64,000 nucleotides of DNA, from NCBI GenBank assembly GCA_011089965.1, contig JAANAU010000006.1, positions 62,001 to 126,000 of the forward strand, read 5' to 3'. Of the stretch, positions 3,439 to 54,318 are shown in pieces (positions within the stretch are counted from its first letter, which is position 1; every line of letters starts with the position of its first letter). This stretch comes from Magnetococcales bacterium. GTDB taxonomy: Bacteria; Pseudomonadota; Magnetococcia; Magnetococcales; Magnetaquicoccaceae. Under the pieces are notes generated by a model. It had not been told where the DNA came from. It did not search any database and saw only the letters and a list, made by a program, of their open reading frames with translations. Both the position numbers and the translations under genes were made by a program.

Positions 3439-4275
3439 CTACTGGCTGGCTGTATTCACCTGAACTCGGGCACAACGGAAGCCCACGTTGTGGTTATGAT
3501 GCGACTGGTGGTCCCAGTAACGGTCAGAGGAACGCACATAGCGCGCATTGCTGGTCCAGGCACCGCCGCGCAGCACACGCTGCTCGTCAGCCTCATCGAT
3601 CCAGGCCGTTCCATCCACAGGAGCGCCAATATAAGTTTTATTCTGAGTATCCTGGCACCACTCCCACACATTGCCATGCATCTCAAACAACCCCCACGGA
3701 TTGGCGGGCAGGCTGGCTACCGGGACGCTCTGCCCGCGATATTCCCCTTTTGGATCATCCGGGAGATAGGGAAAATGACCATTAAAATTCACCTGGGCCG
3801 AGGTGATCGTATGGCCAAAACTGAATGGAGTCGTGGTTCCAGCCCGACAGGCATACTCCCATTGCGCTTCACTGGGCAGAGTCAAGGCCAAGCCAGGAAT
3901 GAGCGCATTGATTTTTTTTATGAATTCCTGAACCATCTCAAAATCCACCTGCTCAACGGGATGATCCGGTGATTGGAAATGACTCGGATTCTCCCCCATC
4001 ACCGCCTGCCACAACGCCTGGGTGCAGGCAGTATCGAACAGCCAAAAGCCGGATTGAAAAGTCACCCGATGTTGCGGCCCTTCATCATCCAATCGACCAT
4101 GCTCCTCCTCAGGCGACCCCATCATGAAACTGCCTGGAGGGATCCAGCGCATGCGTTGCGTCACCGCCTGAATCGTGAACTCCACAAAAACCCCATACCC
4201 ATCCTGCCCCCACCCCGAAGCCCAGGAGGGAGGATGACCCGATACCAGAGGATGCCATGCGTATTTGGTGATCAA
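3439..4275 (-). CDS. Free-standing FGE-sulfatase / C-type-lectin-fold module protein
   Basis: 278 residues from a TTG start (4275); no good ATG lies further upstream, so the N-terminus is uncertain. Nearly the whole protein is one FGE-sulfatase (SUMF1/EgtB/PvdO) module: MRWIPPGSFMMG, LPSEAQWEYACRAG, MHGNVWEWCQD and a C-terminal RGGAW...VGFRCARV. It is a close paralogue of the two modules in the 1152-residue protein at 5330-8788, including the short lead-in (PPSWASGWGQDGYG). In DGR targets this fold is a ligand-binding display scaffold rather than an enzyme, and the hypervariable C-terminus fits that role. It could be a second display protein or a duplicated, detached fragment of the large protein. 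Confidence 0.8.
   Translation of the reverse strand: MITKYAWHPLVSGHPPSWASGWGQDGYGVFVEFTIQAVTQRMRWIPPGSFMMGSPEEEHGRLDDEGPQHRVTFQSGFWLFDTACTQALWQAVMGENPSHFQSPDHPVEQVDFEMVQEFIKKINALIPGLALTLPSEAQWEYACRAGTTTPFSFGHTITSAQVNFNGHFPYLPDDPKGEYRGQSVPVASLPANPWGLFEMHGNVWEWCQDTQNKTYIGAPVDGTAWIDEADEQRVLRGGAWTSNARYVRSSDRYWDHQSHHNHNVGFRCARVQVNTASQ
3462..3561 (-). other. DGR-like variable region, copy A
   Basis: In the coding direction a 74 bp hypervariable block (3561-3488) is followed by a 26 bp segment (3487-3462) identical in all three FGE modules. Most variable codons end in C or T and differ at positions 1 and 2 (acc, agc, aat, tat, gac, tac, cac, cat), as expected if AAY template codons were randomised at adenines. 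The encoded stretch runs AWTSNARYVRSSDRY. The identical segment is where an 'initiation of mutagenic homology' element would lie. The template repeat itself is not in the window, so adenine specificity cannot be shown directly. Confidence 0.5.
3842..4029. repeat. 188 bp segment identical to 5718-5905
   Basis: This part of the free-standing FGE gene is base-for-base identical to 5718-5905 in the last FGE module of the large protein. Flanking sequence is clearly diverged on both sides. It codes for the IPGLALTLPSEAQWEYACRA region and the helix before it. A sharply bounded identical block suggests gene conversion or very recent copying. Confidence 0.9.
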
Positions 4276-4401: not shown

Positions 4402-4830
4402 TCACGTTGCGGGAATGTTCCATGGATTGAGAATCTGCGCACCGGTTGGTTCAAAATCGGCAACATTGCGCGTGACAACAGTCAGACCGTATACCAGTGC
4501 AGTCGCCGCCATGAGACCGTCACGGACCGGACGAGGGTCTGGCACATGGAGTCGTGCGCTGCGTTGGGCCACCACCGTATCAACGGGCAAAATGCGACCA
4601 GAAAAGGCTGGCAGGACGTGATTGTTCAACCAGGAGCGAAAAATCATTCCCTGGGATGCGTCTCGGCGTTCGGCGAGCAAAACGCCGATTTCCAATTCCT
4701 GGATGGTGATCACGGACAGGTACAAATCGAAGGCCTCCACACTGTCGGCCCACTTTGCAACCTGACGATCCGCTTTGCCCAGACGAATTTTTCGCAGCTC
4801 GGAGACGACGTTGGTATCGAGCAGATACAT
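4402..4830 (-). CDS. PIN-domain toxin (VapC/FitB-like)
   Basis: 142 residues from ATG at 4830; a TTG just before it is less likely. The PIN-domain acidic residues are visible: D5 in YLLDTNVVSELR, E in ITIQELEIG, then D in VRDGLMAATAL and D in NVADFEP. Family members are Mg-dependent RNases that cleave tRNA or other RNA until bound by their antitoxin. The start codon overlaps the antitoxin stop by one base (TGATG), the usual coupling in type II modules. It sits between two related FGE genes, which is typical of toxin-antitoxin cargo in defence islands. Confidence 0.9.
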   Translation of the reverse strand: MYLLDTNVVSELRKIRLGKADRQVAKWADSVEAFDLYLSVITIQELEIGVLLAERRDASQGMIFRSWLNNHVLPAFSGRILPVDTVVAQRSARLHVPDPRPVRDGLMAATALVYGLTVVTRNVADFEPTGAQILNPWNIPAT

Positions 4831-5084
4831 CAAAGGAGATCTGCCGGTTGAGCCATGTCGCGCAATGGCGGAATCTCCAATTCCATATCTTCCATGCCGG
4901 GCATAGCCAACAAATCAGCGATTTTCGTACGATCACCCGTCATTTTCTTGTATTCGTCGAACGTCAACAGCACATGTGCAGGTTTGCCGCGATCTGTAAT
5001 GAACACCGGACCAGATTGTGCCGCTTTTTTGGCCTTGCTGGCGTCCTGATTGAACTGTCGGCTTGAAAAGGTCGTGATACTCAT
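4830..5084 (-). CDS. Phd/YefM-type antitoxin
   Basis: 84 residues. The N-terminus (ITTFSSRQFNQDASKAKKAAQSGPVFITDRGKPAHVLLTFDEY, about residues 3-46) is the Phd/YefM fold that dimerises, binds the operator and represses the operon. The C-terminal ~35 residues are acidic and proline-rich (MEDMELEIPPLRDM), as expected for the disordered tail that blocks the toxin active site. It is the first gene of the pair, upstream of and coupled to the PIN toxin. Conditional autoregulation is expected from the family. Confidence 0.88.
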   Translation of the reverse strand: MSITTFSSRQFNQDASKAKKAAQSGPVFITDRGKPAHVLLTFDEYKKMTGDRTKIADLLAMPGMEDMELEIPPLRDMAQPADLL

Positions 5085-5329: not shown

Positions 5330-8300
5330 TCACCACTGAACTCGGGCACAACGGAAGCCCACGTTGCGGTCGAGGGACGACTGCTGGGACCAGAAGCGGC
5401 AAGCGGAGCGCACGTGACGCGCGATGTTGCCCCAGGAACCGCCGCGCAACACACGCAGCCCGTCAGCCTCGTCGATCCAGGCCGTTCCATCCGTGGGAGC
5501 GCCATCATAAGAATCATGCCTGGTATCCGCACACCACTCCCACACATTGCCATGCATTTCAAACAAACCCCACGGATTGACGGGCAGGGTGGCTACCGGG
5601 ACAGTCTTCTCACGATACTCACCTTTTGGATCCTCTGGTTGATAAGGGGAATTACCATTAAAATTCACCTGGTCCGAGGTGATGGTGTGGCCGAAGCTGA
5701 ATGGAGTCGTGGTCCCGGCCCGACAGGCATACTCCCATTGCGCTTCACTGGGCAGAGTCAAGGCCAAGCCAGGAATGAGCGCATTGATTTTTTTTATGAA
5801 TTCCTGAACCATCTCAAAATCCACCTGCTCAACGGGATGATCCGGTGATTGGAAATGACTCGGATTCTCCCCCATCACCGCCTGCCACAACGCCTGGGTG
5901 CAGGCGGTATCGAACAGCCAATAACCGGATGAGAGGGTCACCAGATGTTGCGGTCCCTCACGATCCATCCGGTCATGCTCCTCCTCAGGCGATCCCATCA
6001 TGAAACTGCCCGGCGGGATCCAGCGCATCTTCTGGGTGACCGGTCCAATGGTGAAAGTGGCCCATAATCCATAGGGATCCCGACCCATGCCACTGGCCCA
6101 GGCCGGCTTGATGGTACGCTTGAAAGTGACGATTTCACAATCGCTGCGGATCTGAAAGGCCTCCACTTCTGGCATGCTGCACGCAGCCTGACCAGACGAC
6201 TTGTTCAGATCCAGGATCTCTGCCTGGTCTGTGTCTGCCCGGCCTGTCCGCCGCTCCGCCAGGCGGACAGGCCGGGCAGACCGAGGCTCCGCATCACCCT
6301 GCTGCCGGCTGACTGTGCTCACCTGAACTCGGGCACAACGGAAGCCCACGGCGGAACTGTTGCCATATATCCGATGCTCCCAGAAACGACAAGCAGAGCG
6401 CGTGTAACGCGCAGCGAGGCTCCAGAAACCGCCGCGCTGCACACGCCGCCCGTCAGTCTCGTCGATCCAGGCCGCTCCATCCAAAGGAGCGCCCTTATAA
6501 GAGTCATGCCAACTGTCTTGACACCACTCCCACACATTGCCATGCATTTCAAACAAACCCCACGGATTGGCGGGCAGGCTGGCTACCGGGACGCTCTCCT
6601 CGCGATATTCCCCTTTTGGATCATCCGGGAGATAGGGAAAATTGCCATCAAAATTCACCTGGGCCGAGGTGATGGTATGGCCAAAACTGAATGGGGTCGT
6701 GGTCCCGGCCCGACAGGCATACTCCCACTGCGCTTCACTGGGCAGAGTCAAGGCCAAGCCTGGGATAAGCGCATTGATTTTTCTTATAAATTCCTGAACC
6801 ATCGCAAAATCCACCTGCTCCACGGGACAATCCAGTAATTGGAACCCACTCGGATTCTCCCCCATCACCGCCTGCCACAACTCCTGGGTGCAGGCGGTAT
6901 CAAACAACCAATAACCGGATGAGATCGTTACCCGATGTTGCGGACCTTCATCATCATACCGGTCATGCTCATCCTCAGGGGATCCCATCATGAAACTGCC
7001 CGGCGGAATCCAGCGCATGCGCTGACGCACCCCCCCCACGACAAACTCCACCCACGCCCCGTACCCATCCCATCCCCAGGTGTCGGCCCAGGAGGGGGGG
7101 GAACCGGATTGCCAGAAGTGATCTCGCTCACCGGCAAGATCAACTTCAGAAACCTGGATCAAACCAATATGCGTCGTCATGGAGGTCAACAGGCTGCCGC
7201 TCTGACCATGGCCCGCCTCGATACGAGCACCACGTTGCCGCAACAGCACGGTTTGAGGATTGGACATTGACCCAACGGAAATCCTGGATATGTCCATGCC
7301 AGAAGGTACAGGCAACGATGCATCTTTCTGATAAGCGTAATACCAATACAAGGTTAACGCAGACAATACATGACGATCATGCCAGGCAGTTTCGGGGATG
7401 CGCCGGATTGTCCGCTCCCCCATGGCCAGAATCGCCCGCATTTCCGGCCCGCCAACACCTGACTCAATCAATCGGCCCACCTGTTCCAGATCGGCACGCG
7501 CCGCCTGCAACAAATCCCAAGGCACCAGACTCTGAGAACCAACCCCCAGACTGATCAACTCTTCGTAACAAATTTCCCTTGGCAGGGCAGACCTCCACTT
7601 CAGCACTCTTTCCAAAACCGCACGTCGCAATGTCTCCGGTTCGTCTTCAAAGGCTTGACGGTAACGCTTGGCGACATCTGAATGCATGGTCGCCGCCACG
7701 GCGTGATTGCTTGACAAGGCCGGATGTTGCCACACGTCGGCTTCCACACCGGCATCTGCACCTCCTGCCCCCGAACAAAGACGTATATCCCGCAACAGGC
7801 CCGGCTCGATACGGATCGCTGGTGCCACCAGACGCAACAAACGCTCAGTCAATTCCACTGGAGAAACCATCCGTGACCGGGACAGTGCCGGACGTTCCCA
7901 CTCCATCAGGGTCCAATGGCGCAGCCAGGCCACCGGCCAACGACGCCGGGCAGCAGGCATCAGAGCAACGGTACGGCAGCCTGCGGCCTGCAACCGGACG
8001 CCCAACAACTCCCATTTACGGATCACCCACTCCGGGCCAGCCGCCAGTGATCCGAGATCTCCCAGGACGATCACCAGTGTTCCAGGAGACGGCACCACAT
8101 AAGGGGCAAGGCCGTGACGGGTCAACATAACCGGCCCGGCCCCACCTTCAAACAGGCGGGCATACGTGATACTCTCGTGGGGAAACAACCGACCGAGCCG
8201 TGCAGCAAGCAGATCCTGGTCACGCCAGAATGGGGTCAGCCGTCTGCTGCGATCATCGATGATCTGCACACCAGCGCCCCACCGCAATATCTTCTTGCGG

Positions 8301-8788
8301 GGCAAACGGCGCACAAACCGCCCCTGACTGAAAGCCTGTACCAGTCGGCCCACATCCAGCACTCCACTCTCTGCCGCCTGCGCAGCAACACGACGCAAAC
8401 GGGGCAACAGTTCACGCCAGGTGGCCAAAGGACGGAAGGCAGGAACCTCACCCGGCATCCGATTCCCGGTCAGATTCTCCGGTGCAGGCAGAGACTGCAT
8501 GTCTGGTGCAATCTTGCGGGCCACCAGCTCATAATTTGTCGGTATCAGGAAGGGGACCGGAGCCATTTCACAAGATACAGGATCTTGCAATTCTGATAAA
8601 TGTAATAACGAATCCTCATATTCATCCTCTCCTGGCGCTTTATCCGGATCGCGCTTGCCTCCTCTCCCCTCGCTCTTCCTCTGACCGGGCTGTTTCGTAT
8701 AACCGATCAACCGCGCCATGACAGACAACCCTTCCGGACCCAGAGCCAGGGCGCGGACGAGATCAGCACGTCCGCACTGGAGTCTCAT
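5330..8788 (-). CDS. Large conflict-system protein: ~560-residue N-terminal region plus two tandem FGE/C-type-lectin modules
   Basis: 1152 residues. The first ~560 have no domain I can name with confidence. They contain strand-helix patterns resembling a degenerate von Willebrand A fold (VQIIDDRSRRLTPFW; TLVIVLGDLGSLAAG; CRTVALMP) but no clear MIDAS DxSxS. Residues ~565-825 and ~890-1152 are two FGE-sulfatase modules, each with MRWIPPGSFMMG, LPSEAQWEYACRAG, MHGNVWEWC and a variable C-terminus ending VGFRCARVQ. The linker (~825-890) encodes a 20 bp inverted repeat. The gene overlaps the MoxR ATPase by ATGA, so the two are coupled. In MoxR-based ternary systems a vWA or vWA-like protein partners the ATPase and hypervariable modules recognise the target. 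That role is inferred here. Confidence 0.8.
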   Translation of the reverse strand: MRLQCGRADLVRALALGPEGLSVMARLIGYTKQPGQRKSEGRGGKRDPDKAPGEDEYEDSLLHLSELQDPVSCEMAPVPFLIPTNYELVARKIAPDMQSLPAPENLTGNRMPGEVPAFRPLATWRELLPRLRRVAAQAAESGVLDVGRLVQAFSQGRFVRRLPRKKILRWGAGVQIIDDRSRRLTPFWRDQDLLAARLGRLFPHESITYARLFEGGAGPVMLTRHGLAPYVVPSPGTLVIVLGDLGSLAAGPEWVIRKWELLGVRLQAAGCRTVALMPAARRRWPVAWLRHWTLMEWERPALSRSRMVSPVELTERLLRLVAPAIRIEPGLLRDIRLCSGAGGADAGVEADVWQHPALSSNHAVAATMHSDVAKRYRQAFEDEPETLRRAVLERVLKWRSALPREICYEELISLGVGSQSLVPWDLLQAARADLEQVGRLIESGVGGPEMRAILAMGERTIRRIPETAWHDRHVLSALTLYWYYAYQKDASLPVPSGMDISRISVGSMSNPQTVLLRQRGARIEAGHGQSGSLLTSMTTHIGLIQVSEVDLAGERDHFWQSGSPPSWADTWGWDGYGAWVEFVVGGVRQRMRWIPPGSFMMGSPEDEHDRYDDEGPQHRVTISSGYWLFDTACTQELWQAVMGENPSGFQLLDCPVEQVDFAMVQEFIRKINALIPGLALTLPSEAQWEYACRAGTTTPFSFGHTITSAQVNFDGNFPYLPDDPKGEYREESVPVASLPANPWGLFEMHGNVWEWCQDSWHDSYKGAPLDGAAWIDETDGRRVQRGGFWSLAARYTRSACRFWEHRIYGNSSAVGFRCARVQVSTVSRQQGDAEPRSARPVRLAERRTGRADTDQAEILDLNKSSGQAACSMPEVEAFQIRSDCEIVTFKRTIKPAWASGMGRDPYGLWATFTIGPVTQKMRWIPPGSFMMGSPEEEHDRMDREGPQHLVTLSSGYWLFDTACTQALWQAVMGENPSHFQSPDHPVEQVDFEMVQEFIKKINALIPGLALTLPSEAQWEYACRAGTTTPFSFGHTITSDQVNFNGNSPYQPEDPKGEYREKTVPVATLPVNPWGLFEMHGNVWEWCADTRHDSYDGAPTDGTAWIDEADGLRVLRGGSWGNIARHVRSACRFWSQQSSLDRNVGFRCARVQW
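5338..5437 (-). other. DGR-like variable region, copy C (second module of the large protein)
   Basis: Same layout as copy A: a 74 bp variable block (5437-5364) followed by the invariant 26 bp segment (5363-5338) at the very end of the gene. The variable codons ggc aac atc, cac, tgc, ttc, tcc and tcc ctc gac cgc aac almost all end in C, as randomised AAC codons would. Against copy A, 14 of 25 residues differ here, while the 188 bp shared segment upstream is identical. The stop follows two codons after the invariant segment. Confidence 0.5.
5718..5905. repeat. 188 bp segment identical to 3842-4029
   Basis: Partner of the identical block in the free-standing FGE gene. The corresponding part of the middle module (about 6705-6895) has several substitutions, so the identity is specific to this pair. 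Confidence 0.9.
6233..6281. repeat. 20 bp perfect inverted repeat with 9-base loop, inside coding sequence
   Basis: Arms 6233-6252 and 6262-6281 are perfectly complementary and GC-rich; the loop is gctccgcca. It begins 43 bp downstream (in the coding direction) of the invariant segment of variable region B and encodes the linker between the two FGE modules. One arm plus loop recurs downstream of copy A (3412-3430), and gctccgcc also recurs downstream of copy C (5314-5321). DGR targets carry a hairpin or cruciform just downstream of the variable region that stimulates retrohoming; this could be such an element captured by an in-frame fusion. Confidence 0.85.
6325..6427 (-). other. DGR-like variable region, copy B (first module of the large protein)
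   Basis: A 77 bp variable block (6427-6351), one codon longer than the other two copies, followed by the same 26 bp invariant segment (6350-6325). The residues differ widely from both other copies (FWSLAARYTRSACRFWEHR). Some codons (gag, cgg, ata, acg) do not end in C/T, so this copy may be an older, drifted version. It lies in the middle of the gene rather than at its 3' end, which is unusual for a DGR target. Confidence 0.45.
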
Positions 8789-9765
8789 ACCCTGGCCTCA
8801 GGATGCTTGCGCAACACATAGCGCCCGATCTGCCGCAAAACCCGACGTTGCCCACGCAGGTCGTCCGGATGCAAGGCCAGCACCGCCCGCACCAGATCCA
8901 GATACTCGGCCTGTCCAGGCAAGGGAAACCACTGATTTCTCTTAGCCTCTGCCCGATCCTGTGCCAACTGGATGGCAGCTTCTTTCAGAATCTCCGGCTT
9001 CGCCTGTGGGAAATGGCGCCGGGCGCGGGCGCTCAACAAAGCAACCAGTTCCGCTTCATCGGCAGGCAACTCCAGAAACAGAACCAGACAACGCCGCAAG
9101 AATGCATCCGGCAGCGCCCGCTCCTCATTGGTGGTGATCACCACCAATGGCGATGTCTTGTGCATCCGGATCGGCTCCGTCATGCCAGAAGGGGTAAAAC
9201 GCCCAATTCCCAAGGCCTCCAGAAGGCTGTTCGGAACATCGGATTCAGCCTTGTCAATCTCATCAATGAGCAAAACCGTACCATCAGCAACCTGCCACTC
9301 CTCCGGTTCAGCATACATCCCCGAATTTCCCGGATTGGCCCTGCCCTTGGCATCGTCCCAATCAAACGCCCACCACAATGGTCCTGGACGCAGATAACGG
9401 GTAACGGCCAACCGTGCTCCGATCTGCTCGGGTTTGAGTCCCAGGGAGGCCGCAAGCTGGGCTTCGGCCAACCGCTCAACCGCATCGAAACGCCACATCA
9501 GATCACCAGGTTCAGTACGGGCATCGACAACACAGGAGATAAAAGCACGCTTGAGTTGGATGGCCACCGCATGCGCCAGTTGACTCTTGCCAGTTCCAGG
9601 CTCACCCCGCACCAACAGTGGACGACGGGCCGCCAAAGCGGCATTGACCGCTTCGATGCTCTGGGCATCAAAAACATGTACCTGCTCCGGCATCCCATCC
9701 TGAGTCGGCAACTCCGTGAAATCCCCAGGCTTACACTTCAAAAACAGGGAATGGCTCATCTGCAC
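8785..9765 (-). CDS. MoxR-type AAA+ ATPase
   Basis: 326 residues. Walker A GEPGTGKS at 54-61, Walker B VLLIDE at 164-169, sensor 1 in VVITTNEERALPD and an arginine-finger region AFLRRC at ~221-226. The ITTNEE...LPDAFLRRC signature is that of MoxR/AAA_5 ATPases, which remodel or load partners, usually vWA proteins. It overlaps the upstream kinase/trypsin gene by 10 bp and the downstream FGE protein by 4 bp, so the three form one translationally coupled unit. Expected role: the NTP-dependent switch of the conflict system. Confidence 0.9.
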   Translation of the reverse strand: MQMSHSLFLKCKPGDFTELPTQDGMPEQVHVFDAQSIEAVNAALAARRPLLVRGEPGTGKSQLAHAVAIQLKRAFISCVVDARTEPGDLMWRFDAVERLAEAQLAASLGLKPEQIGARLAVTRYLRPGPLWWAFDWDDAKGRANPGNSGMYAEPEEWQVADGTVLLIDEIDKAESDVPNSLLEALGIGRFTPSGMTEPIRMHKTSPLVVITTNEERALPDAFLRRCLVLFLELPADEAELVALLSARARRHFPQAKPEILKEAAIQLAQDRAEAKRNQWFPLPGQAEYLDLVRAVLALHPDDLRGQRRVLRQIGRYVLRKHPEARV

Positions 9766-12536
9766 GCCGTCAACATATCAACAGGAATGGTTACATGGAA
9801 TTTTTCATCATCATCCTGGAGCCTGTTGACCGTTGTTGACAAGGTGATGAAAAACATATTTTGATAACTCTCCCGAAACGCCGAGAATCGCCGCATCATC
9901 ACTTCATCCTTGGAGTTAATCTCTTCCGAGATGATAAAATACCAAATATTTTTCACAGAACTTTCAAACATACCTCTTGGTTGATTCAGCCTTGCACGAA
10001 CTCTGTTCAACATCTCATGGCGTTTACCTTCTTTGTCCAGCCCTGTCATTTTATCAACAATATTACGAATATTATTATCAAGAATCTCCTCAATCATCTG
10101 ATCTTCAATGCTGCTAAAAAAGACATCCACGATATCGACTCTGCCAGATTCCGGACCCAGAGGAACGGCTGTGCGACCAGAGGCATGAGTATCGCCCGCT
10201 GATTGGCGAAAAGAGGCCTCTCGCTCCATGACACCAGCCATGATGAATTCCGCAACCGTCTTGCTGGCTGTATTCAAGGCAATCAACACCTTCTCTGGAT
10301 CCGCCATCTGCGCACGCACATCATGAAGATCCTGATGGGGCAACCGGATCGGCACCATGAGACATAAAATCTGACTTGCCACTTTGGACACATCCGGCAT
10401 TATAAGCTTATGGTTGTTATACAAATTGACAAGCAGTTGAATCAAATCAATCAGCTCCAATCCAAGCAGACGCTCCTCTAAAAAAGCTCCATTGCGAAAG
10501 CCTACCTTATTCAATTGGTCATTAAGATAAGTCGATACTGCCTTGTGATGCAGACAGACCCGTAATTGCTGCTTGACATCCTCCAGCCGCTTTTGACGAC
10601 GCAGCTCCTCCTGCCAATAGCACGCAACCATAAACCCAGGTATTTTGAAAAGATGGGCCACTGGGACCATGGCCCGCACTTGACCAGAAGACACCCCCAA
10701 CACCCCAACAACCACGCCATCCGCATTGTAGACCGGACTCCCTACCCCTCCTCGAAAGTCCTGGAGGCCAAAAGGGTCTAAACGCGACATAACGGTTTGT
10801 CCCTTCAACTCCAGTGCCGCTCCAGAAATCGGGAACAACGAACAGGGTTCCAGGAGTGCCGCAGAGTCCAAACGGTCCGGAAATGCACATCCTGACCATC
10901 TGGCTCCAAGGATCGGAATGTCATCCGCAAACTTCCGGGCATATCGCTGCCCATGCGTTTTGGGAAACGAGCAGTCGATCAAGGCAACATCAAGATCACC
11001 CTCCCCTTGCCAGACAACTTTACGAATCGAAAACCATTCACCATCATCACACCATCGAACCTGAATCTTTTCCGGACAATTGATCCCGGGCGACAACAGA
11101 TCCCGACAGGTCAATATCCGCTCTTTCTCCACCACAAGACCCATGGCCACACGCCCTGTATGCACAACCCGGATCTGCACCAACACACGCGCATCATGAC
11201 ACGTTTCGGCATGAGTACTGAAAAACTGTTCCGGGTTGTCGGAAGAAGGCGCACTGTCAAGGCTCTCAGGAATCCAGGTCGTCTCCACGGGACGGACACC
11301 ACCCGATGCCACTCCAGTACCGTCTGATGCAGATATCCATTGATTAAACAATTCAGGCTCTTTCAACTTTAAATATTGTGTTGCATAATATCCTGCATAA
11401 TATAATGCTAATTTTCTATTCTCGTCATTATCCAATGGTTTGTTGGCCCAGTTCAATCCGGCAGCCACCCGGCTCAACAAATTTTGACGCTCCAAATCTG
11501 CATCCATATGTTGCATATGAGCCTGTTTTTTCCAACGCCCCCATCCATTGCGCAATTTTGTGATTGTATTATGAATATGCGACTCTTCATGCTTCAAAAC
11601 AATTATTTTTGTTATGTCTAACCCCTTCAAAACCTCCATAAGAGCAACAGGCGCAAGATCCTTTTTCTGTTCCAGATTCTTCAAACAAAGAAACACTTCC
11701 AGATATGCATGATCAAAACCAACAGGAGCAACACGGGAGAGTGAAAAGTCAATGACATAAAATGGTGTTTTTCGAATCGCTTCCTGCAACAACAAGATGT
11801 TGTCCCCATGGAAATCCATATGCAGATTTCCCGTGACAACTTGCAACTTTTGACAGTCACTGGCATGCGATTTCAAGAAGTCATAAAACCAGAAAGGATT
11901 GACCAAACGGTCAGTTCCACAACTGATTCCTTTTGTATTACATGAGACTTCAGTTGCCAAAACTGCCAGACGCGAATCTGGATCAAGGCGATACTCAAGC
12001 CACTGATTCAATAACTCATGAGGATCATACTGACGCGCTTCTGGTTCACGATGAGACCAGCTATCCAATATGGTTTTCGCCAAGGAAGTGGCCTTTGCCT
12101 GCAAAACCATATCCGACGGCTTGCCCGCAGGGGCATATTGATCAAAATTGCCGGCAACCCCCATCAGCATGGCCGTACATTTCTGCGCCCCCTCTCTGCA
12201 ATAATGAACAACTTTTAATTCCGGAACATGTTTTTTAAAAAAATTCACTTTAATATTGTTGACACGGTTCCTGACCGCATCAAAAACTTCTTTCTCGCCA
12301 TGACGCTCTGATTCGTCACATATGAACAATTTCAGGACATATTGTCCCGGAACGACCTGGGCAGCCAGACCTGCCTGCAACAACTTAATCCGAAAAAGGG
12401 CTGCCCCGGAAAAACCTGGTTTCAATGCAACCAGATCGTCCCATTTCCCGTGTGGTGCCCAGGTCGCAAGAGCCTCTTGTCGACATCTCTCCAAAAGGCT
12501 CTCTGCGGCAGATGGCATGCCATCGGTTGCGCTCAT
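9756..12536 (-). CDS. APH-type kinase + inactive trypsin-like domain protein of the MoxR ternary system
   Basis: 926 residues. Residues ~25-300 form an aminoglycoside-phosphotransferase-like kinase: glycine loop GFSGA 41-45, lysine K69 in YVLKL, Brenner motif H239-x-D241-x-H243-x-x-N246 and D263 in VIDFS. All key residues are present. Residues ~450-640 are a trypsin-like domain: ILTCRD puts D479 at the usual histidine, DVALI keeps the aspartate (D516), and GGVGSPV puts V598 at the nucleophilic serine, so peptidase activity is unlikely. The C-terminal ~280 residues are helical and unassigned. Kinase-like and trypsin-like modules joined to MoxR are reported in the NTP-dependent conflict systems described by the Aravind group. 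It is first in the three-gene unit and starts 3 bp after the lysR stop. Confidence 0.8.
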   Translation of the reverse strand: MSATDGMPSAAESLLERCRQEALATWAPHGKWDDLVALKPGFSGAALFRIKLLQAGLAAQVVPGQYVLKLFICDESERHGEKEVFDAVRNRVNNIKVNFFKKHVPELKVVHYCREGAQKCTAMLMGVAGNFDQYAPAGKPSDMVLQAKATSLAKTILDSWSHREPEARQYDPHELLNQWLEYRLDPDSRLAVLATEVSCNTKGISCGTDRLVNPFWFYDFLKSHASDCQKLQVVTGNLHMDFHGDNILLLQEAIRKTPFYVIDFSLSRVAPVGFDHAYLEVFLCLKNLEQKKDLAPVALMEVLKGLDITKIIVLKHEESHIHNTITKLRNGWGRWKKQAHMQHMDADLERQNLLSRVAAGLNWANKPLDNDENRKLALYYAGYYATQYLKLKEPELFNQWISASDGTGVASGGVRPVETTWIPESLDSAPSSDNPEQFFSTHAETCHDARVLVQIRVVHTGRVAMGLVVEKERILTCRDLLSPGINCPEKIQVRWCDDGEWFSIRKVVWQGEGDLDVALIDCSFPKTHGQRYARKFADDIPILGARWSGCAFPDRLDSAALLEPCSLFPISGAALELKGQTVMSRLDPFGLQDFRGGVGSPVYNADGVVVGVLGVSSGQVRAMVPVAHLFKIPGFMVACYWQEELRRQKRLEDVKQQLRVCLHHKAVSTYLNDQLNKVGFRNGAFLEERLLGLELIDLIQLLVNLYNNHKLIMPDVSKVASQILCLMVPIRLPHQDLHDVRAQMADPEKVLIALNTASKTVAEFIMAGVMEREASFRQSAGDTHASGRTAVPLGPESGRVDIVDVFFSSIEDQMIEEILDNNIRNIVDKMTGLDKEGKRHEMLNRVRARLNQPRGMFESSVKNIWYFIISEEINSKDEVMMRRFSAFRESYQNMFFITLSTTVNRLQDDDEKFHVTIPVDMLTACR

Positions 12537-28385: not shown

Positions 28386-29012
28386 ATGATCTCCATACTT
28401 TCAGAGCTGGAACAGGATGCTTTGCTGGAGGTGCTGAACCTGGGCATGGGACAGGCGGCAGATGCCTTGTCAGGCATGGTGGCGGAGGAGATCCTTCTGT
28501 CCGTACCCAGACTCTATTTCCTCCCCTGGGAAGAGGCTGCCGAAATGATCGGACCAGGCCCCACAACCCGCATGTCCGCAGTCCGACAACGGTTCACCGG
28601 TCCGTTTCACGGCTCGACCATGCTGATCTACCCGCGGGAACGCAGCCTGGAATTGGTGCGCGCCCTGCTGCGCGAGGAGATCCCCCTGGAAGAGTGCCAG
28701 GAGCTGGAACAAGAAAGCTTGACCGAAGTGGGCAATATCCTGCTGAACGCCTGCCTCGGCAGCCTGGCCAACATCATGGGGGTGGAAATCCTGTGCGACC
28801 TGCCAGCCTTTTTGCAAGGCACCCGGGACGCTCTGCTGGCCAGCGAACGCGCACTCAATGCCGACAACGGGATCGTGCTTCTCCTGTTTATTGATTTCAC
28901 AACCAAAGAAGAGACGGTCAAAGGACATGTGGTCCTTTTGTTTGACGCCTGGTCGATCTCACGGCTCAAACGGGAGCTGGCTGCTGTGATACGCCGTTTT
29001 GAAGGACCGTAA
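28386..29012 (+). CDS. CheC-family CheY-P phosphatase
   Basis: 208 residues. Two copies of the CheC/CheX/FliY helix signature: ELEQDALLEVLNLGMGQAAD at ~8-27 and ELEQESLTEVGNILLNACLG at ~105-124, each with the E..N pair that positions the water attacking CheY phosphate. Known proteins dephosphorylate receiver domains. The gene is 3 bp upstream of a hybrid histidine kinase with a receiver, which is the likely partner. Frame is full length, starting at ATG 28386. Confidence 0.85.
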   Translation: MISILSELEQDALLEVLNLGMGQAADALSGMVAEEILLSVPRLYFLPWEEAAEMIGPGPTTRMSAVRQRFTGPFHGSTMLIYPRERSLELVRALLREEIPLEECQELEQESLTEVGNILLNACLGSLANIMGVEILCDLPAFLQGTRDALLASERALNADNGIVLLLFIDFTTKEETVKGHVVLLFDAWSISRLKRELAAVIRRFEGP

Positions 29013-29015
29013 CCC

Positions 29016-30581
29016 ATGGATACTGCACCCACCGCATCGCTGGATGCAGATCTGGCCTGGACCGTCATTCAAGAGGCAGCCATCGGTTTGATCCTGCTCG
29101 ATCACCAGGAGCGGGTCATCACGTGGAACGGCTGGATGGAACAAAGTTCCGGCATCCCACGGGAACGGATTCTGGGACTGCCGTTAAACGGTTTCTTTCC
29201 AACCCTGCCCCACTCCCGCATGGAACGGGCCATCCGCGATGCCTTGCAACGCGGTCTGTCAGCCCTGCTCACCCCCAAACTGAACACCTGCCTGTTGCCA
29301 TTGCGCGATCTCAATCAACAGCCCATGGAGCTGCTCATCCAGATCAAACCGTTACAGCCTGCGAACCGCTCCCGTCATTGTGTCATTCAGATTCAGGATG
29401 TCACCCATGCGGTGCAACGGGATCAACGCCTGCGGGAGAACAGTCGTGCCCTGCTGCGCGCCAAAGGTCTGGCTGACGCCAAAAATGCAGCCAACCAACT
29501 CTTTCTGGCTGACATCGGTCATGCCCTGCGCACCCCTCTGAACACCCTTCTGGGCCTGGTAGAACTCCTCACCGAGACCGATGATCTGCACAAGGCACGC
29601 CGTCAGGCCACGATGATGCAGGATGCAGCCCAGACACTACGCACGCTCGTGGATGATCTGCGTGATTACTCTCAGCTTGCAACCGATCCTTTGCCCTTTC
29701 AACCAGGCCCCTTTGATCTGGCCAGCGTATTGGCCGAGGTGCGCGACACCACGGCAGCGGCTGCCCGCACACGCCCTGTGGATTTTCTGTGCGATCTGCC
29801 GGTGGAGCTGCCAACGCCACTGATCGGGGATCCCATCCATACCCGGCAGGCATTGCATCATCTATTGACCGATCTTTTGCGCGCCACCACACGGGGCGAA
29901 ATCCGGTTGACCGTCCAACGGCTCGACACGGAGACCACGGGAGTACGCATCGGCTGCACCATCCACGCCACCGGACTGCTGCAACCGCTCCTGCCACCCC
30001 AACACTCCACAGACACTCCCGGCCTGCATGCCAGAAGCAGATTGGGCACAACCATTGCCCGCATGCTGATCGGGCGCATGGGCGGAACCTTCAACGAGCA
30101 CGGAACCCCGGGGCGCGACCACACCGTGCAGCTCACCTTGCCGTTTGCTCTGGCGTCCGATGCGTCAACCCCACCCGTCCACCCCATGCCAGCCGGTTCC
30201 GGCTTGCGGGAGGTCAACATTCTGGTGGTGGAAGACGATGAAGTGAATCGGGAAGTGACCCGTGGCATGCTCAAACGGATCGGCATCGTTCCTGACATGG
30301 CCAACAATGGTCAGGAGGCGCTGACCCGTCTGGCCACCAAATCGTACGATCTGGTATTCATGGATTGTCAGATGCCGACCATGGACGGCTTGACCGCCTG
30401 TCGGCTTTTTCGCAACTCGGAACACACCTCTGACCGGCACACTCCCATCGTGGCCCTGACCGCACATGCCATGAAAGGAGATCGGGAACGCTGCATGGAG
30501 GCTGGCATGGACGACTATCTGACCAAGCCGGTCCGGGGCGACACCCTGCGTCGCACCATCCAACGCTGGGTCACCCGCTGA
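29016..30581 (+). CDS. PAS - HisKA - (degenerate ATPase) - receiver hybrid sensor kinase
   Basis: 521 residues, no membrane segment, so cytoplasmic. PAS domain ~15-130 (GLILLDHQERVITWNGWMEQ), dimerisation helix with phospho-histidine H169 (ADIGHALRTPLNTLLGLVE), an ATPase-like region ~275-385, and a receiver at ~400-520 with D450 (LVFMDCQMPTMDG) and K in YLTKPV. The ATPase region lacks the N-box asparagine (RQALHHLLTDLLRAT) and the G1 DxGxG, while GTTIARMLIGRMGG survives. Autokinase activity is therefore doubtful. It may be a phosphorelay or scaffold protein working with the adjacent CheC phosphatase. Confidence 0.85.
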   Translation: MDTAPTASLDADLAWTVIQEAAIGLILLDHQERVITWNGWMEQSSGIPRERILGLPLNGFFPTLPHSRMERAIRDALQRGLSALLTPKLNTCLLPLRDLNQQPMELLIQIKPLQPANRSRHCVIQIQDVTHAVQRDQRLRENSRALLRAKGLADAKNAANQLFLADIGHALRTPLNTLLGLVELLTETDDLHKARRQATMMQDAAQTLRTLVDDLRDYSQLATDPLPFQPGPFDLASVLAEVRDTTAAAARTRPVDFLCDLPVELPTPLIGDPIHTRQALHHLLTDLLRATTRGEIRLTVQRLDTETTGVRIGCTIHATGLLQPLLPPQHSTDTPGLHARSRLGTTIARMLIGRMGGTFNEHGTPGRDHTVQLTLPFALASDASTPPVHPMPAGSGLREVNILVVEDDEVNREVTRGMLKRIGIVPDMANNGQEALTRLATKSYDLVFMDCQMPTMDGLTACRLFRNSEHTSDRHTPIVALTAHAMKGDRERCMEAGMDDYLTKPVRGDTLRRTIQRWVTR

Positions 30582-30674
30582 CAGCCCACCAAAGCCATCA
30601 TGGCAATTCTTGCCAGAAAAATCGGCAAACTTGGCACCCTCCCTTTACCCTCGGATGCTGGCCTCTGATCTGCC

Positions 30675-30700
30675 AACTCCTGACAATGGCAGGAGTTTCC
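30675..30700 (+). terminator. Weak hairpin after the hybrid kinase gene
   Basis: aactcctg (30675-30682) pairs with caggagtt (30690-30697) across 7 bases, followed by a short T stretch. It lies in the gap between the hybrid kinase and the diguanylate cyclase genes and may end the cheC-kinase transcript. Stem and T-run are short. Confidence 0.35.
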
Positions 30701-30821
30701 CTGCCATCAAGTGAATTGGCATAAACTTGGCAACGGGGCTTGGCAAGACCGATCCGATCCAATCCGGTCATTCGGTCCAAACGTTGCACACCTCTGCTGC
30801 CTCCAGTGCTTGGAGAAGGAA

Positions 30822-31844
30822 ATGGGTATCAGTATCTCGCTGGAAAATCGCCGTAAACTGATGATCGATCCCGCGCTGTTCGCGCAAAAGCCACGCGCCC
30901 TCATCGAAGAGATCGAAGAGTATCGCAAAGAGACCGAACGGCTGGGCCGTATTTATGAGCTGCACCGTCAATTGGGCACCACGTTGGATCTGGATTCGAT
31001 GATCGATGCCTTTTCCCGGTGGCTCATTCCGGTGATGCCGCACAATCTCGTGGCCTATCGACGCTTTGGACGGCGCATGCATACGGCCTGCTCCTGCCAC
31101 GGCCCGGACCGGCAACTGTTGCAGGAGTTGGCCCAGGAACTCCTCAACCAGCCGATCACCGACAAACGGTCCGGAGATCTTCCGTCTGTAGACCGCTATT
31201 ATCACCTTTGGCCTTTGGATCCCCATCACGAAGATTGCCTGCTGGTGATCCACCCCTGTCCGGAGATCTCCACAGCCCCCTTTCTCCATCTGGAAGAGGA
31301 GATCCTGGAGGAGCTGCGCGGCCCTCTGGAACGGGCACTGGCGTACGAGGATCTGTATGATCAGGCGCGACGCGATGCCTTGACCGGACTGGTCAACCGC
31401 CGGGTCTTTGAAGAACGGGCGGCCATGGAGATGGCCCATGCCCATCGGGATGGACGGCCTTTGGCCCTGGCCTGTCTGGATCTGGACCACTTCAAGGCGA
31501 TCAACGACCGTTTGGGCCATGGGGAGGGGGATGCGGTGTTGCAGACCGTTTCCAGAACCTTTGCCCGCATTGTGCGCGACTCGGATCTGCTGGCGCGCAT
31601 CGGCGGCGATGAGTTTGCCATGATCCTGCCCAACACCCCCCTCGACAAAGCCAACCTGTTGATGGAACGGCTCTGCAATGCCGTGCGCGCCCTGGATATC
31701 CACGCCCCTGGTTCGGCTCCTTTGGGGGTGAGTGTGGGTCTGGCCCTCTGGCAACCCCATCAGTCGTTGCAACTCTGGTGGGAAAGCGCCGATGCCGCAC
31801 TCTATCGCGCCAAGGCTGCCGGACGCAGTCAGGTCAGTTATTGA
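30822..31844 (+). CDS. Diguanylate cyclase (GGDEF)
   Basis: 340 residues from ATG 30822, preceded by ggagaagga; a longer frame from 30711 is less likely. The N-terminal ~190 residues include a coiled coil (about 20-45) and a divergent GAF-like region (LGTTLDLDSMIDAFSRW onward). C-terminal GGDEF domain has LTGLVNRRVF, LDLDHFKAINDRLGH, ARIGGDEFAM and an RDSD inhibitory I-site exactly five residues before GGDEF. It should make c-di-GMP with product inhibition. Cytosolic. Confidence 0.92.
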   Translation: MGISISLENRRKLMIDPALFAQKPRALIEEIEEYRKETERLGRIYELHRQLGTTLDLDSMIDAFSRWLIPVMPHNLVAYRRFGRRMHTACSCHGPDRQLLQELAQELLNQPITDKRSGDLPSVDRYYHLWPLDPHHEDCLLVIHPCPEISTAPFLHLEEEILEELRGPLERALAYEDLYDQARRDALTGLVNRRVFEERAAMEMAHAHRDGRPLALACLDLDHFKAINDRLGHGEGDAVLQTVSRTFARIVRDSDLLARIGGDEFAMILPNTPLDKANLLMERLCNAVRALDIHAPGSAPLGVSVGLALWQPHQSLQLWWESADAALYRAKAAGRSQVSY

Positions 31845-42156: not shown

Positions 42157-43995
42157 ATGCCGATCCCCCATCTCCCCCTCCCAAATATGCTCACAGGCCG
42201 TGAACCTGATCCCATGGCACGAGAACACGCCCTGGAAATCGCACCGCGCATCTGGTGGGTCGGACACCACTTTGACGATGACCCGTTCCAGTGCCACTCC
42301 TACCTGATCGAAAACGGGGATCAGTCGATCCTGCTGGATCCCGGATCTGTGCTGACCTTTGAATCCACCCTGAAGAAAGTCGAAGAGGTGGTCCCGCTCT
42401 CCGCAATCCGCTACTTCATCTGTCACCACCAGGATCCGGACATCACCGGCATCCTGCCCCACCTGGATGCCCGTATCACCCGTGACGATGCCATGGTCCT
42501 CAGCCACTGGCGCGCCAATGCCCTGATCAAACATCTGGGATTGAAAAATCTGCCTCTGATATGCGTGGAACAACAAGATTGGCAGCTCGATCTGGGAGCC
42601 GGACGCACACTCCAATTCATTTTCACCCCATATCTGCACTTCAGCGGGGCCTTTTGCACGTTTGATCCCACAACCGGTACACTCTTTTCCAGCGACCTGT
42701 TTGGCGGCATCTCGGACAACACCCCCCTCTATGCCCGTGATGAACAGGATTTCGAGGCCATTCAATTCTTTCATGAACACTACATGCCCAGCCAGGAGAT
42801 CCTGCGCCACGGCATCTCCAACCTGGAAACCCTCCCCATCCGCCTGATTGCTCCCCAACACGGCTCACTGATTCCAGGACATCTGATTGATTATATTTTT
42901 AATCGCCTGAAAAATCTGGATTGCGGACTTTTCCTGCTGACACGCACCAACTCCAACTATCAACGGCTCTCCAATCTCAACCGCATGCTGCGGGAGATGA
43001 TGCGCACCCTGATGGTGCAACGCGACTTCAGCTCTGTGGCCAACCGCATTCTGGAACTGGCCCAACCCCTGATTCCCGTGGTGGGTCTGGAGTTCTATGC
43101 CCTGACCGACACCGATGAAACCCTCCATTTGGCTCCGGAGAACAGTTTTCGCGGCCAGATTACCCCAGCCCCCGTCGAATGCCGGGTCTTTCTGGGCATG
43201 GATCGCCACCACTGGAGTCTCGACCACTCTGGCCCCTACCTCATCACCCCCTATCCCGGAACCGCTCTCACACCCACAGGGGAACCCATTGAACAGGGGT
43301 TGATCCTGCCGCTCTTCTCCCCGCAAAACGATCTGATTCAGGCAGTCGTGCTGTTTCGTCTCTCTTCACCTTTGCACATTGACGACGAAATGGCCAACAT
43401 CCTCACCCAGTTGAGCATCCCCCTGGGCGTGGCCGTGGAACGGGAGATCATCCTCCACATGATGGAGTTGGAAAAAAAACGCTCCTACGAACGCTCCATC
43501 CGCGACCCTCTGACCGGTCTCTTCACCCGTTACTACATGCATGAGGCCCTGCACCGACTCAGCCGCATCCATGACCGCGATCCCCAGGCATCCATTGCCA
43601 TTCTTGCCTACGATATCGATCATTTCAAATCGATCAACGACAATTTTGGTCATGCCATGGGAGATGTCACCCTGCGCGTGGTGGCTCACATCCTGATGGA
43701 CAGCATCCGGGGCGTGGATATCCCGGTGCGGCTCGGGGGTGAGGAGTTTCTGGTCTTTTTGATCGGTACACCGGAAAAAACCACCCGTGAAGTGGCGGAA
43801 CGGATCCGCCTGCGGGTGCAGCATCAACAGTTCGATCCGCCCATGCAGGAACGCACGGTCACGATCAGTTGCGGCATTGCCTTTCGCAAGGCGGAAGAAC
43901 CCATCGAAACCGCCATTGAACGGGCCGATCTGGCACTCTATCAGGCCAAGAGCAGCGGACGCAACAAAGTGGTCGTATGCAGCGGACACCCGTGA
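42157..43995 (+). CDS. ODP-like diiron metallo-beta-lactamase - GAF-like - GGEEF protein
   Basis: 612 residues from ATG 42157; ATGs at 42187 and 42214 are alternatives, and the frame open from 41647 overlaps tsaC. N-terminal MBL domain with flavodiiron-type ligands: HHQDPDITG (HxDxD), PYLHFSGAF, SSDLFGG and APQHGSL, matching ODP oxygen-binding diiron sensors. Then a helical linker, a GAF-like stretch (~300-430) and a GGDEF domain with DPLTGLFTRYYM, YDIDHFKSINDNFGH and LGGEEFLVF. It is likely a c-di-GMP synthase controlled by O2 or NO. No signal or membrane segment. Confidence 0.85.
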   Translation: MPIPHLPLPNMLTGREPDPMAREHALEIAPRIWWVGHHFDDDPFQCHSYLIENGDQSILLDPGSVLTFESTLKKVEEVVPLSAIRYFICHHQDPDITGILPHLDARITRDDAMVLSHWRANALIKHLGLKNLPLICVEQQDWQLDLGAGRTLQFIFTPYLHFSGAFCTFDPTTGTLFSSDLFGGISDNTPLYARDEQDFEAIQFFHEHYMPSQEILRHGISNLETLPIRLIAPQHGSLIPGHLIDYIFNRLKNLDCGLFLLTRTNSNYQRLSNLNRMLREMMRTLMVQRDFSSVANRILELAQPLIPVVGLEFYALTDTDETLHLAPENSFRGQITPAPVECRVFLGMDRHHWSLDHSGPYLITPYPGTALTPTGEPIEQGLILPLFSPQNDLIQAVVLFRLSSPLHIDDEMANILTQLSIPLGVAVEREIILHMMELEKKRSYERSIRDPLTGLFTRYYMHEALHRLSRIHDRDPQASIAILAYDIDHFKSINDNFGHAMGDVTLRVVAHILMDSIRGVDIPVRLGGEEFLVFLIGTPEKTTREVAERIRLRVQHQQFDPPMQERTVTISCGIAFRKAEEPIETAIERADLALYQAKSSGRNKVVVCSGHP

Positions 43996-53223: not shown

Positions 53224-54318
53224 ATGAAAAAGAAAATCTGGTGTGCGGTTTCAGGCCATGGATTCGGTCATTGGGGACAACTGGTACCGGTTCTGACCGT
53301 TCTGCTCCAGCAGTGGCCCGATCTGGTCGTGCATGTGACCGGAAATATACCGAGCGATTTGATTGCCAGAACCTTGCGTCATCCCTGCACTCATGACCCG
53401 ATCAACCGGGATGTGGGTCTGATCCAGCCCGATCCTCTGGTGACAGATCTGAAGGCCACGGCAGCAGCGTTGCGGCGGTTGCACGACCGTTGGGAGGAGA
53501 AAATCCACCATGAGATGCAGCTCATGCAGGAGTGGCAGCCTGACCTGATGTTGGGGGATATCCCCTATCTGCCCATGGAAGCTGCCAATCGTCTGGGGAT
53601 CCCCAGCGCAGCCCTCACCTCATTGACCTGGGACGAGATCATCCAGGCCTATTTCCCCCTCTCTGACCCCGAATGCCAGGCATGGCTTGCCACCATGCGC
53701 ACGGCCTATGGCCAGGCCACCCTCGCCCTGCGCATCACTCCAGCCTTGCCCCACCACCCGTTTTCACGTTCTATCGACATCCCACCAGTTGTAACCAAAG
53801 GGACAAAGACACCGCAAAAAATCCGCACCGCTCTTGCCATCCCCATGCACGATCAGCGCCCGTTGATTCTGGTCACTCTGGGCGGCATTCCCACCCAAGC
53901 CTTGCCGATTGCCGCTTTGATCCGGCACAAAGCGTACCATTGGCTTGTGGATGGGGATCTGGACTCAACCGAATGCGATCACCTTCATCCTTTACGTTGT
54001 TTGTCGCAGTGGGCCTTTGCCGATGTGATCGCCTCTGTGGATGGGGTGGTCAGCAAGCCTGGTTACGGCACAGCCCTGGCAGCCACCACCCAGGGGATCC
54101 CGTTTCTCTATGTGCGGCGGGGCATCTTCCCGGACGAACTCCCCATCGGTCACTGGTGCATGCAACATGGCCGCGCCACCGAGATCACGCAGGAGGCCTT
54201 TTTCACCGGTCAATTCCTTGATCCGCTTCAAAGAATGCTCACCTGTCCCGCCCCATCCCTGCCCGCAGCCAACGGTGCCGAAGTGGCGGCCCGGATCCTG
54301 AGCGAACGGTTTTTGTGA
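53224..54318 (+). CDS. GT-B glycosyltransferase-like protein
   Basis: 364 residues. Opens with CAVSGHGFGHWGQLVPVL, the GHG(F)GH loop of MurG/UGT-like and L-arabinokinase-type GT-B proteins. Centre DLMLGDIPYLPMEAANRLGIP; C-terminal donor-site-like ADVIASVDGVVSKPGYGTALAA and GIPFLYVRRGIFPDELPIG. Enzyme class is fairly clear, donor and acceptor unknown. Cytosolic, no signal. Directly downstream of fxsA by about 56 bp. Confidence 0.7.
   Translation: MKKKIWCAVSGHGFGHWGQLVPVLTVLLQQWPDLVVHVTGNIPSDLIARTLRHPCTHDPINRDVGLIQPDPLVTDLKATAAALRRLHDRWEEKIHHEMQLMQEWQPDLMLGDIPYLPMEAANRLGIPSAALTSLTWDEIIQAYFPLSDPECQAWLATMRTAYGQATLALRITPALPHHPFSRSIDIPPVVTKGTKTPQKIRTALAIPMHDQRPLILVTLGGIPTQALPIAALIRHKAYHWLVDGDLDSTECDHLHPLRCLSQWAFADVIASVDGVVSKPGYGTALAATTQGIPFLYVRRGIFPDELPIGHWCMQHGRATEITQEAFFTGQFLDPLQRMLTCPAPSLPAANGAEVAARILSERFL

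Follow-up and report, generated by a model that had tools for sequence, protein, structure and literature searches.

The gene described in this study is located on the forward strand of a stretch of 64,000 nucleotides from the genome of a Magnetococcales bacterium, in the following referred to as the window, where it occupies positions 42157 to 43995. A preliminary description of this DNA had proposed the fusion of an ODP-type domain to a diguanylate cyclase at this place. Our analysis has confirmed this observation by profile matches and the conservation of ligands, and it has added a GAF domain, a long helix and residue Q234 to the picture. The domain composition of the protein, its ligand and catalytic residues, the folds, their conservation and the exchange of output domains were established by computation. 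The features of the locus are as follows:

42157..43995, + strand: whole gene, encoding an ODP-GAF-GGEEF protein of 612 amino acids followed by a stop codon (open reading frame and Pfam)
42244..42942, + strand: ODP-type diiron metallo-beta-lactamase (MBL) domain, residues about 30-262 (Pfam, PDB sequence match, model alignment)
42427..42441, + strand: motif HQDPD, residues 91-95, with predicted ligands H91, D93 and D95 (in 66 of 66 aligned fusions)
42637..42639, + strand: H161, predicted iron ligand (66 of 66)
42694..42696, + strand: D180, predicted bridging ligand (66 of 66)
42772..42774, + strand: H206 of FHEHYM, invariant, perhaps second shell (66 of 66)
42856..42861, + strand: Q234-H235 of APQHG, H235 being a predicted ligand (66 of 66)
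42922..42924, + strand: C256 of the DCGL motif, invariant (66 of 66)
42958..43371, + strand: GAF-fold domain including the helix ahead of it, residues about 268-405, of low sequence conservation (AF2 and structural matches)
43384..43500, + strand: long helix, residues 410-448, between the GAF and GGDEF domains, presumably a coiled coil for signalling (AF2/DSSP)
43492..43980, + strand: GGDEF diguanylate cyclase domain, residues about 446-608 (Pfam, TIGR00254)
43708..43719, + strand: I-site RxxD, R518-D521, putative product-inhibition site (both residues in 66 of 66)
43735..43749, + strand: GGEEF signature, residues 527-531 (alignment of 66 fusions)

Alternative in-frame ATG codons are found at positions 42157, 42187 and 42214 (+ strand), and the local alignments to fused relatives that were listed start at query residues 1 to 28; we are unsure about the true start codon. 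A scan for promoters and terminators, which was set aside, detected three promoter-like sites compared to 1.1 expected, all of them within the gene, and two terminator-like sites compared to 1.9 expected.

Properties of the ODP domain

Judging from its sequence and its ligand set (HxDxD/H/D/QH), we assign the N-terminal domain to the ODPs of known structure and not to flavodiiron proteins. Residues 44-236 match the Pfam profile ODP (PF19583) with an E-value of 5.7e-60 and a score of 202.9 bits (cut-off 27.2), and the profile is covered in full (1-194 of 194). In a sequence search of the PDB, ODPs come first (6qrq, E 6e-29; 6qnm, E 2.6e-21) and the best flavodiiron protein (6h0d, E 5.5e-11) ranks below both, values which rule out chance matching. 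The curated cut-off of PF19583 is unspecific, as illustrated by 14 control genomes, of which 12 contain matches at E 0.001, nine contain matches over the cut-off and two contain matches at E 1e-30. The match of the window protein exceeds both thresholds by a wide margin. Only strong matches were thus taken to signify an ODP, and our genome counts of this domain use E 1e-30 or stricter.

The preliminary description had listed the ligands HxDxD, H, D and H of an MBL domain, which are found as H91, D93 and D95, H161, D180 and H235 in each of the 66 aligned fusions (a sample that in all conservation counts includes the window protein). The HQDPD motif is common to the window protein and to both ODP chains that were aligned from the PDB. 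D180 presumably bridges the two metals, a role that we have taken over from flavodiiron proteins. At the position which we take to be equivalent to the second histidine of the flavodiiron HxExDH motif, all 66 fusions contain an aligned Ile. In the ODP from T. maritima, a glutamine at motif 5 is described, in part of the text of PMC7785958, to take the place of the third histidine of motif 2. The protein of the window contains this glutamine (Q234), and an Ile at the position that we assign to the histidine.

The AlphaFold model of the full protein (pLDDT 92.6, pTM 0.72) finds its top structural match in the ODP from T. maritima (6qwo), with a Z-score of 28.8 and an rmsd of 2.9 for 243 aligned residues. 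Below this entry, ODPs and flavodiiron proteins are intermixed (6r9n, Z 27.6; 1e5d, 27.5; 2q9u, 27.3; 6qrq, 26.9), and the ODP from T. denticola (6qnm, Z 25.5) ranks under many flavodiiron rows. The predicted fold alone would thus hardly separate the two groups, and it is the profile, the absent FMN domain and the ligands that settle the distinction. Flavodiiron proteins, whose diiron MBL fold is close to the ODP of the window in the structural alignment, carry an FMN domain and reduce O2 or NO. In the window protein, no flavodoxin or FMN domain was detected by Pfam up to E 1, which agrees with the preliminary description, and the NCBIfam flavorubredoxin models cover residues 47-247 alone with scores far under their cut-off. 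Hemerythrin and globin domains were equally not detected by Pfam up to E 1. The domain resembles the ODPs of T. denticola (6qnm/6r9n) and T. maritima (6qrq/6qwo) in Pfam family, motifs and the lack of a flavodoxin domain, and also in its predicted fold, to which flavodiiron proteins are almost as close.

Features of the GAF domain and the cyclase

The region between both terminal domains (residues 260-440) is without Pfam assignment. When folded separately by AF2 (residues 262-436), it was predicted with a pLDDT of 87.6 and its best structural match, which spans 156 residues, has a Z-score of 13.3. Among the 50 structural rows, titles naming a GAF domain, a phytochrome or a GAF-bearing phosphodiesterase predominate, and the exceptions include DosP and a LuxR-type protein. 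By sequence, the profile GAF_2 is matched in nine of the 66 fusions at E 0.1 and it is not matched at this threshold by the middle segment of the window protein itself, for which the model predicts a GAF fold. The sequential arrangement of ODP, GAF domain, helix and GGEEF domain would conform to the layout expected for a dimeric sensor cyclase.

The C-terminal GGEEF domain mentioned in the preliminary description is matched by Pfam (GGDEF, residues 448-604, E 2e-40) and by TIGR00254 (147.5 bits against a cut-off of 37.4), and in the predicted structure this half of the protein superposes on PleD, DosC and others. Residues D486, N494, D503 and E530 are identical in all 66 fusions, and we take them to bind metal and GTP by assigning roles after PleD, whereas R518-D521 presumably constitutes the I-site of product inhibition. 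Within the GGEEF signature, G527, G528 and E530 are invariant (66/66), E529 is found in 62 sequences (replaced by D in four) and F531 likewise in 62 (replaced by L in four). The domain thus has the features of what is apparently a competent cyclase. Matches to the palm domain of Cas10/Cmr2 were put down to the cyclase-like fold that both have in common.

The ODP and GGDEF profiles of Pfam were both matched in 66 of 66 aligned fusions, whose mean pairwise identity is 0.63 in the ODP domain, 0.27 in the GAF domain, 0.43 in the helix and 0.49 in the GGDEF domain, with the ODP value inflated by the choice of loci based on ODP similarity. In the ODP domain, 42 of 233 residues are invariant, compared to 1 of 116 in the GAF domain. 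The conservation of the GGDEF domain and of its I-site is free of the described bias.

Distribution of the architecture and exchange of the output

In the order Magnetococcales, 35 of 48 genomes contain an ODP at E 1e-30, and the 13 genomes without a match at this threshold include incomplete ones. The 54 ODP matches of the order comprise 16 in short frames and 38 in frames of at least 400 amino acids; the latter are spread over 31 genomes and were defined as fusions by their length, with a domain check on some. Across the phylum, 102 of 398 genomes (including the 35 of the order) contain an ODP at E 1e-40, and the strongest matches in this set are short stand-alone proteins.

To identify relatives, species genomes were scanned with peptide patterns derived from an alignment made mostly of fusions, and the scan thus favours the fusion branch. 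Among the best 80 of 400 relatives, all of them named loci, 76 contain ODP, middle part and GGDEF domain in one frame (with L113 ended by the end of its contig). The remaining four comprise L100 (contig end), L137 (a frame of 297 amino acids), and L127 and L151, which encode a class III cyclase and coincide in position with L077 and L076, respectively. The 76 fusions include sequences from Mariprofundus, Desulfuromusa, Desulfobacteraceae, three Nitrospirota MAGs, Chromatiaceae isolates, Competibacteraceae and Spirochaetota MAGs. Cultured organisms with a homolog include Thiocystis minor and Marichromatium gracile. By sequence, the architecture is thus widespread in several phyla and not special to the organism of the window. 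Membership of Planctomycetota relies on one MAG, and the label Myxococcota on three MAGs titled merely 'Deltaproteobacteria bacterium'. A membership of Chloroflexota was discarded, since the corresponding Anaerolineae MAG (L129) has a very short branch in the tree and an 'Alphaproteobacteria' MAG (L132) as its neighbour, which makes mis-binning likely. None of the 5000 plasmid records listed in a tblastn search contained a single place covering 80% of the query.

A Pfam architecture check on nine relatives has revealed that the ODP domain precedes different outputs. It is found ahead of GGDEF (L063, L073, L075), PAS-GAF-GGDEF (L081), a class III cyclase (L076, L077), the hybrid histidine kinase arrangement HisKA-HATPase-REC-REC-Hpt (L078, L079) and GAF-PAS-HATPase (L080). 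The occurrence in front of class III cyclases and histidine kinases illustrates that the ODP behaves as a modular sensor.

A quick tree was calculated from 122 ODP domains, without bootstrap and with a warning on long branches. In it, the class III cyclase pair and L078/L079 nest within the GGDEF rows, a placement that output swaps would produce. Given the limits of such a tree, we rely solely on the nesting of L127/L151 (fork support 95) and, with less weight, on that of L078/L079 (82). L080 forms a lone long branch near the base of the GGDEF group. Of the 38 rows labelled as stand-alone, which include L100 and L137, 31 are located in a separate clade. On plasmids of Fusobacteria bacterium ZRK30 (L083, L193), a gene coding for an ODP-like MBL protein is directly followed by one or more GGDEF genes, whose GGDEF part is divided between two annotated frames on one of the plasmids; as judged from their sequences, these genes represent a split form of the ODP/GGDEF pairing.

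Genomic context

The genome of the window contains 42 profile matches to GGDEF, 12 to PilZ, seven to flagellin, 33 to MCP-signal (two of them sharing one frame) and one to cbb3 ccoN over the cut-off. Its gene content thus portrays the host as motile, equipped with an oxidase for low oxygen and rich in components of c-di-GMP signalling, and the earlier proposal that the protein would suit a motile organism living at low oxygen is consistent with the flagellin, MCP-signal and ccoN matches. Beyond the scope of that proposal, and in addition to the wide spread of the architecture, a second ODP-GGDEF protein with 50% identity is encoded on another contig of the same genome. A third ODP match (contig C50, 32.3 bits and thus over the cut-off) was rejected, as this 316-residue reading frame contains the motif HVHLDH and looks like an ordinary MBL hydrolase.

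Seven neighbours of the fusion gene were scanned, namely purH, purD, purE, a TsaC-like gene (whose match is under the curated cut-offs), glmS, glmU and atpD. Unlike in chemotaxis-coupled ODPs, there is no chemoreceptor gene among them. An interpretation of the locus by operon or partner logic was dropped, since the neighbours are housekeeping genes without a pointer to oxygen, and the context is thus silent on function. Parts of the order purD-purE-TsaC-like-ODP/DGC-glmS were found in seven of 33 loci checked, some of which are short or ended by contig ends. These are L064, L065, L084, L085, L086 (TsaC-like alone), L088 and L089. Whereas L064 and L065 are assigned to the genus of the window, we infer the same for L084, L085, L086, L088 and L089 from sequence identities of 71-79%. 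As far as the flanks reach, the gene order around the fusion is thus kept in close relatives only. The nearest named relative is L084 from the MAG 'Magnetococcales bacterium isolate nW5bin1' of the window's genus, and 'Ca. Magnetaquicoccus inordinatus' UR-1 belongs to the same family as the window genome.

Several other reading frames were observed in the window. Positions 1899-3131 (+) encode a fusion of Response_reg and Lactamase_B_2, a second MBL signalling fusion that belongs to another family. Positions 28386-31844 (+) contain a cluster in which a hybrid kinase (PAS-HisKA-HATPase-REC) and another GGDEF protein accompany a protein with a weak resemblance to CheC/CheX. A Phd/YefM antitoxin (4830-5084, -) is located near two FGE-sulfatase (PF03781) proteins (3439-4275, -, and 5330-8788, -), one of which has 1152 residues. 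A frame of 926 residues (9756-12536, -) shows a weak match to APH alone and another of 364 residues (53224-54318, +) no Pfam match at E 0.001.

Discussion

The domain organization of the protein described in this study suggests that it is most likely an O2- or Fe(II)-responsive cyclase. We consider it probable that it acts as a one-component cyclase of the ODP-GAF-GGEEF type, which senses O2 and passes the signal via its GAF domain and helix. In this mechanism, a soluble protein would bind O2 at a non-heme diiron site of the ODP domain in dependence on the iron supply. Within a dimer, the resulting change of state would be transmitted via the GAF domain and the long helix, presumably a coiled coil, to the GGEEF domains, thus setting the rate of c-di-GMP synthesis, with the RxxD I-site capping the product. 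In its Magnetococcales host, the protein would tie a motile-to-sessile signal to the local oxygen concentration. Metal content, O2 binding, dimerization, signal path and cyclase activity are predictions in this case. Since no experimental work on any ODP-GGDEF protein was recognized in the open-licence literature, the regulation by O2 draws on the homology to the stand-alone chemotaxis protein. A second and even dominant signal could enter through the GAF domain.

Similar diiron control of a GGDEF domain is found in Bhr-DGC from V. cholerae, whose sensor is a hemerythrin domain instead of the MBL-fold ODP of the window protein. The hemerythrin fold is unrelated to MBL. For Bhr-DGC, the literature in excerpts describes a diferrous form that is about 10 times more active than the diferric form, and by analogy we lean slightly, with little more than even chances, towards a higher activity of the iron(II), O2-free form in the protein of the window.

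A different assignment of the signal, which we regard as unlikely although it is the strongest of the alternatives, would be that the ODP domain mainly reports the availability of iron(II) or NO and that metal loading or an iron-nitrosyl alters the dimer as well as the rate of the cyclase. Magnetotactic bacteria handle much iron, and nitric oxide reductases are found, by their PDB names, among the flavodiiron relatives. Likewise, the ODP is termed an 'Fe[II] and oxygen sensor' in the title of Muok et al., 2019. In contrast, the title of entry 6r9n describes one ODP as a peroxy-diiron species. We see little probability for a mechanism where a small ligand is sensed by the GAF domain instead, with the ODP just tuning dimerization. 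Although GAF domains bind ligands in many cyclases, here it is the least conserved part of the protein (with an identity of 0.27 compared to an ODP value of 0.63 that is biased by the ODP-based choice of loci). The recurrence of the ODP in front of cyclases and kinases provides the best argument for the ODP as the sensor. Finally, it is very improbable that the MBL domain is an enzyme, either an O2/NO reductase or a hydrolase, that was fused by chance or whose turnover is sensed, since despite the common flavodiiron fold (Z 27.5 with 1e5d), the protein lacks an FMN domain, contains the ligand set of ODPs with Ile at the aligned flavodiiron histidine, and shares a domain that recurs ahead of several signalling outputs.

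With O2 sensing by the ODP as the preferred reading, the protein can be related to known systems. The role of the ODP as O2 sensor in chemotaxis, which the preliminary description had invoked, is in line with excerpts of the literature, where the protein is described as O2/iron sensor for chemotaxis that can bind iron and oxygen. In these excerpts, the T. denticola ODP is a stand-alone protein genetically coupled to a chemoreceptor homolog, whereas in the window the ODP is covalently fused to GAF and GGEEF domains with c-di-GMP as presumed output. According to a passage of PMC7319448 which does not name the domains, Muok et al., 2019, described ODPs fused with signal transduction domains. The window protein, with its ODP and signalling domain, is of the same kind, which is thus not new; the protein is real and its type of fusion was known before, and it is the function proposed here that derives from sequence comparison. 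Excerpts of PMC12889525 and PMC12654446 cite Muok et al., 2019, and the term 'ODP' was not found in either or in PMC13401364. The ODP is listed among oxygen-sensing domains in a section of PMC9665402, and a flavin-based receptor in Magnetospirillum gryphiswaldense is the subject of PMC12442639. In a 2022 review of c-di-GMP stimuli (PMC8846402), a term search found no ODP, lactamase, diiron or non-heme; the consulted part of its oxygen/redox table contains PAS, protoglobin and hemerythrin sensors, with protoglobins or hemerythrin as the sensors of O2-sensing diguanylate cyclases.

A parallel to the described exchange of outputs is offered by the globin-coupled cyclases (E. coli DgcO, BpeGReg, PccGCS), which in the consulted excerpts also sense O2 and have exchangeable outputs, although they do so with a heme protoglobin instead of the predicted non-heme diiron site of the ODP. 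We moderately favour the view that ODP-coupled sensors form a general modular class of O2-sensing enzymes, which parallels the globin-coupled sensors without the use of heme, in which an ODP(-GAF) front end drives diguanylate cyclases of several phyla, that would add a third class of O2-sensing diguanylate cyclases to those containing globin and hemerythrin, and whose outputs have been swapped to class III cyclases and histidine kinases. If true, O2-sensing cyclases would use a third, unrelated iron site besides protoglobin and hemerythrin, in carriers that include purple sulfur bacteria, Mariprofundaceae, sulfate-reducer MAGs, spirochaete MAGs and Magnetococcales. Such proteins would permit a one-protein assay of signalling from the ODP site, which should be easier than the study of a chemoreceptor array. 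For the magnetotactic cocci, to which the source organism is related, they would provide a concrete and testable link between oxygen and c-di-GMP.

A separate observation concerns L076 and L077, which both originate from MAG nCLbin10, one Magnetococcales genome. Among PDB entries, adenylate cyclases (6fht, E 1.7e-68; 2w01, E 2.7e-60) are nearest to the cyclase part of L076, and the two loci possibly encode a diiron-regulated producer of cAMP.
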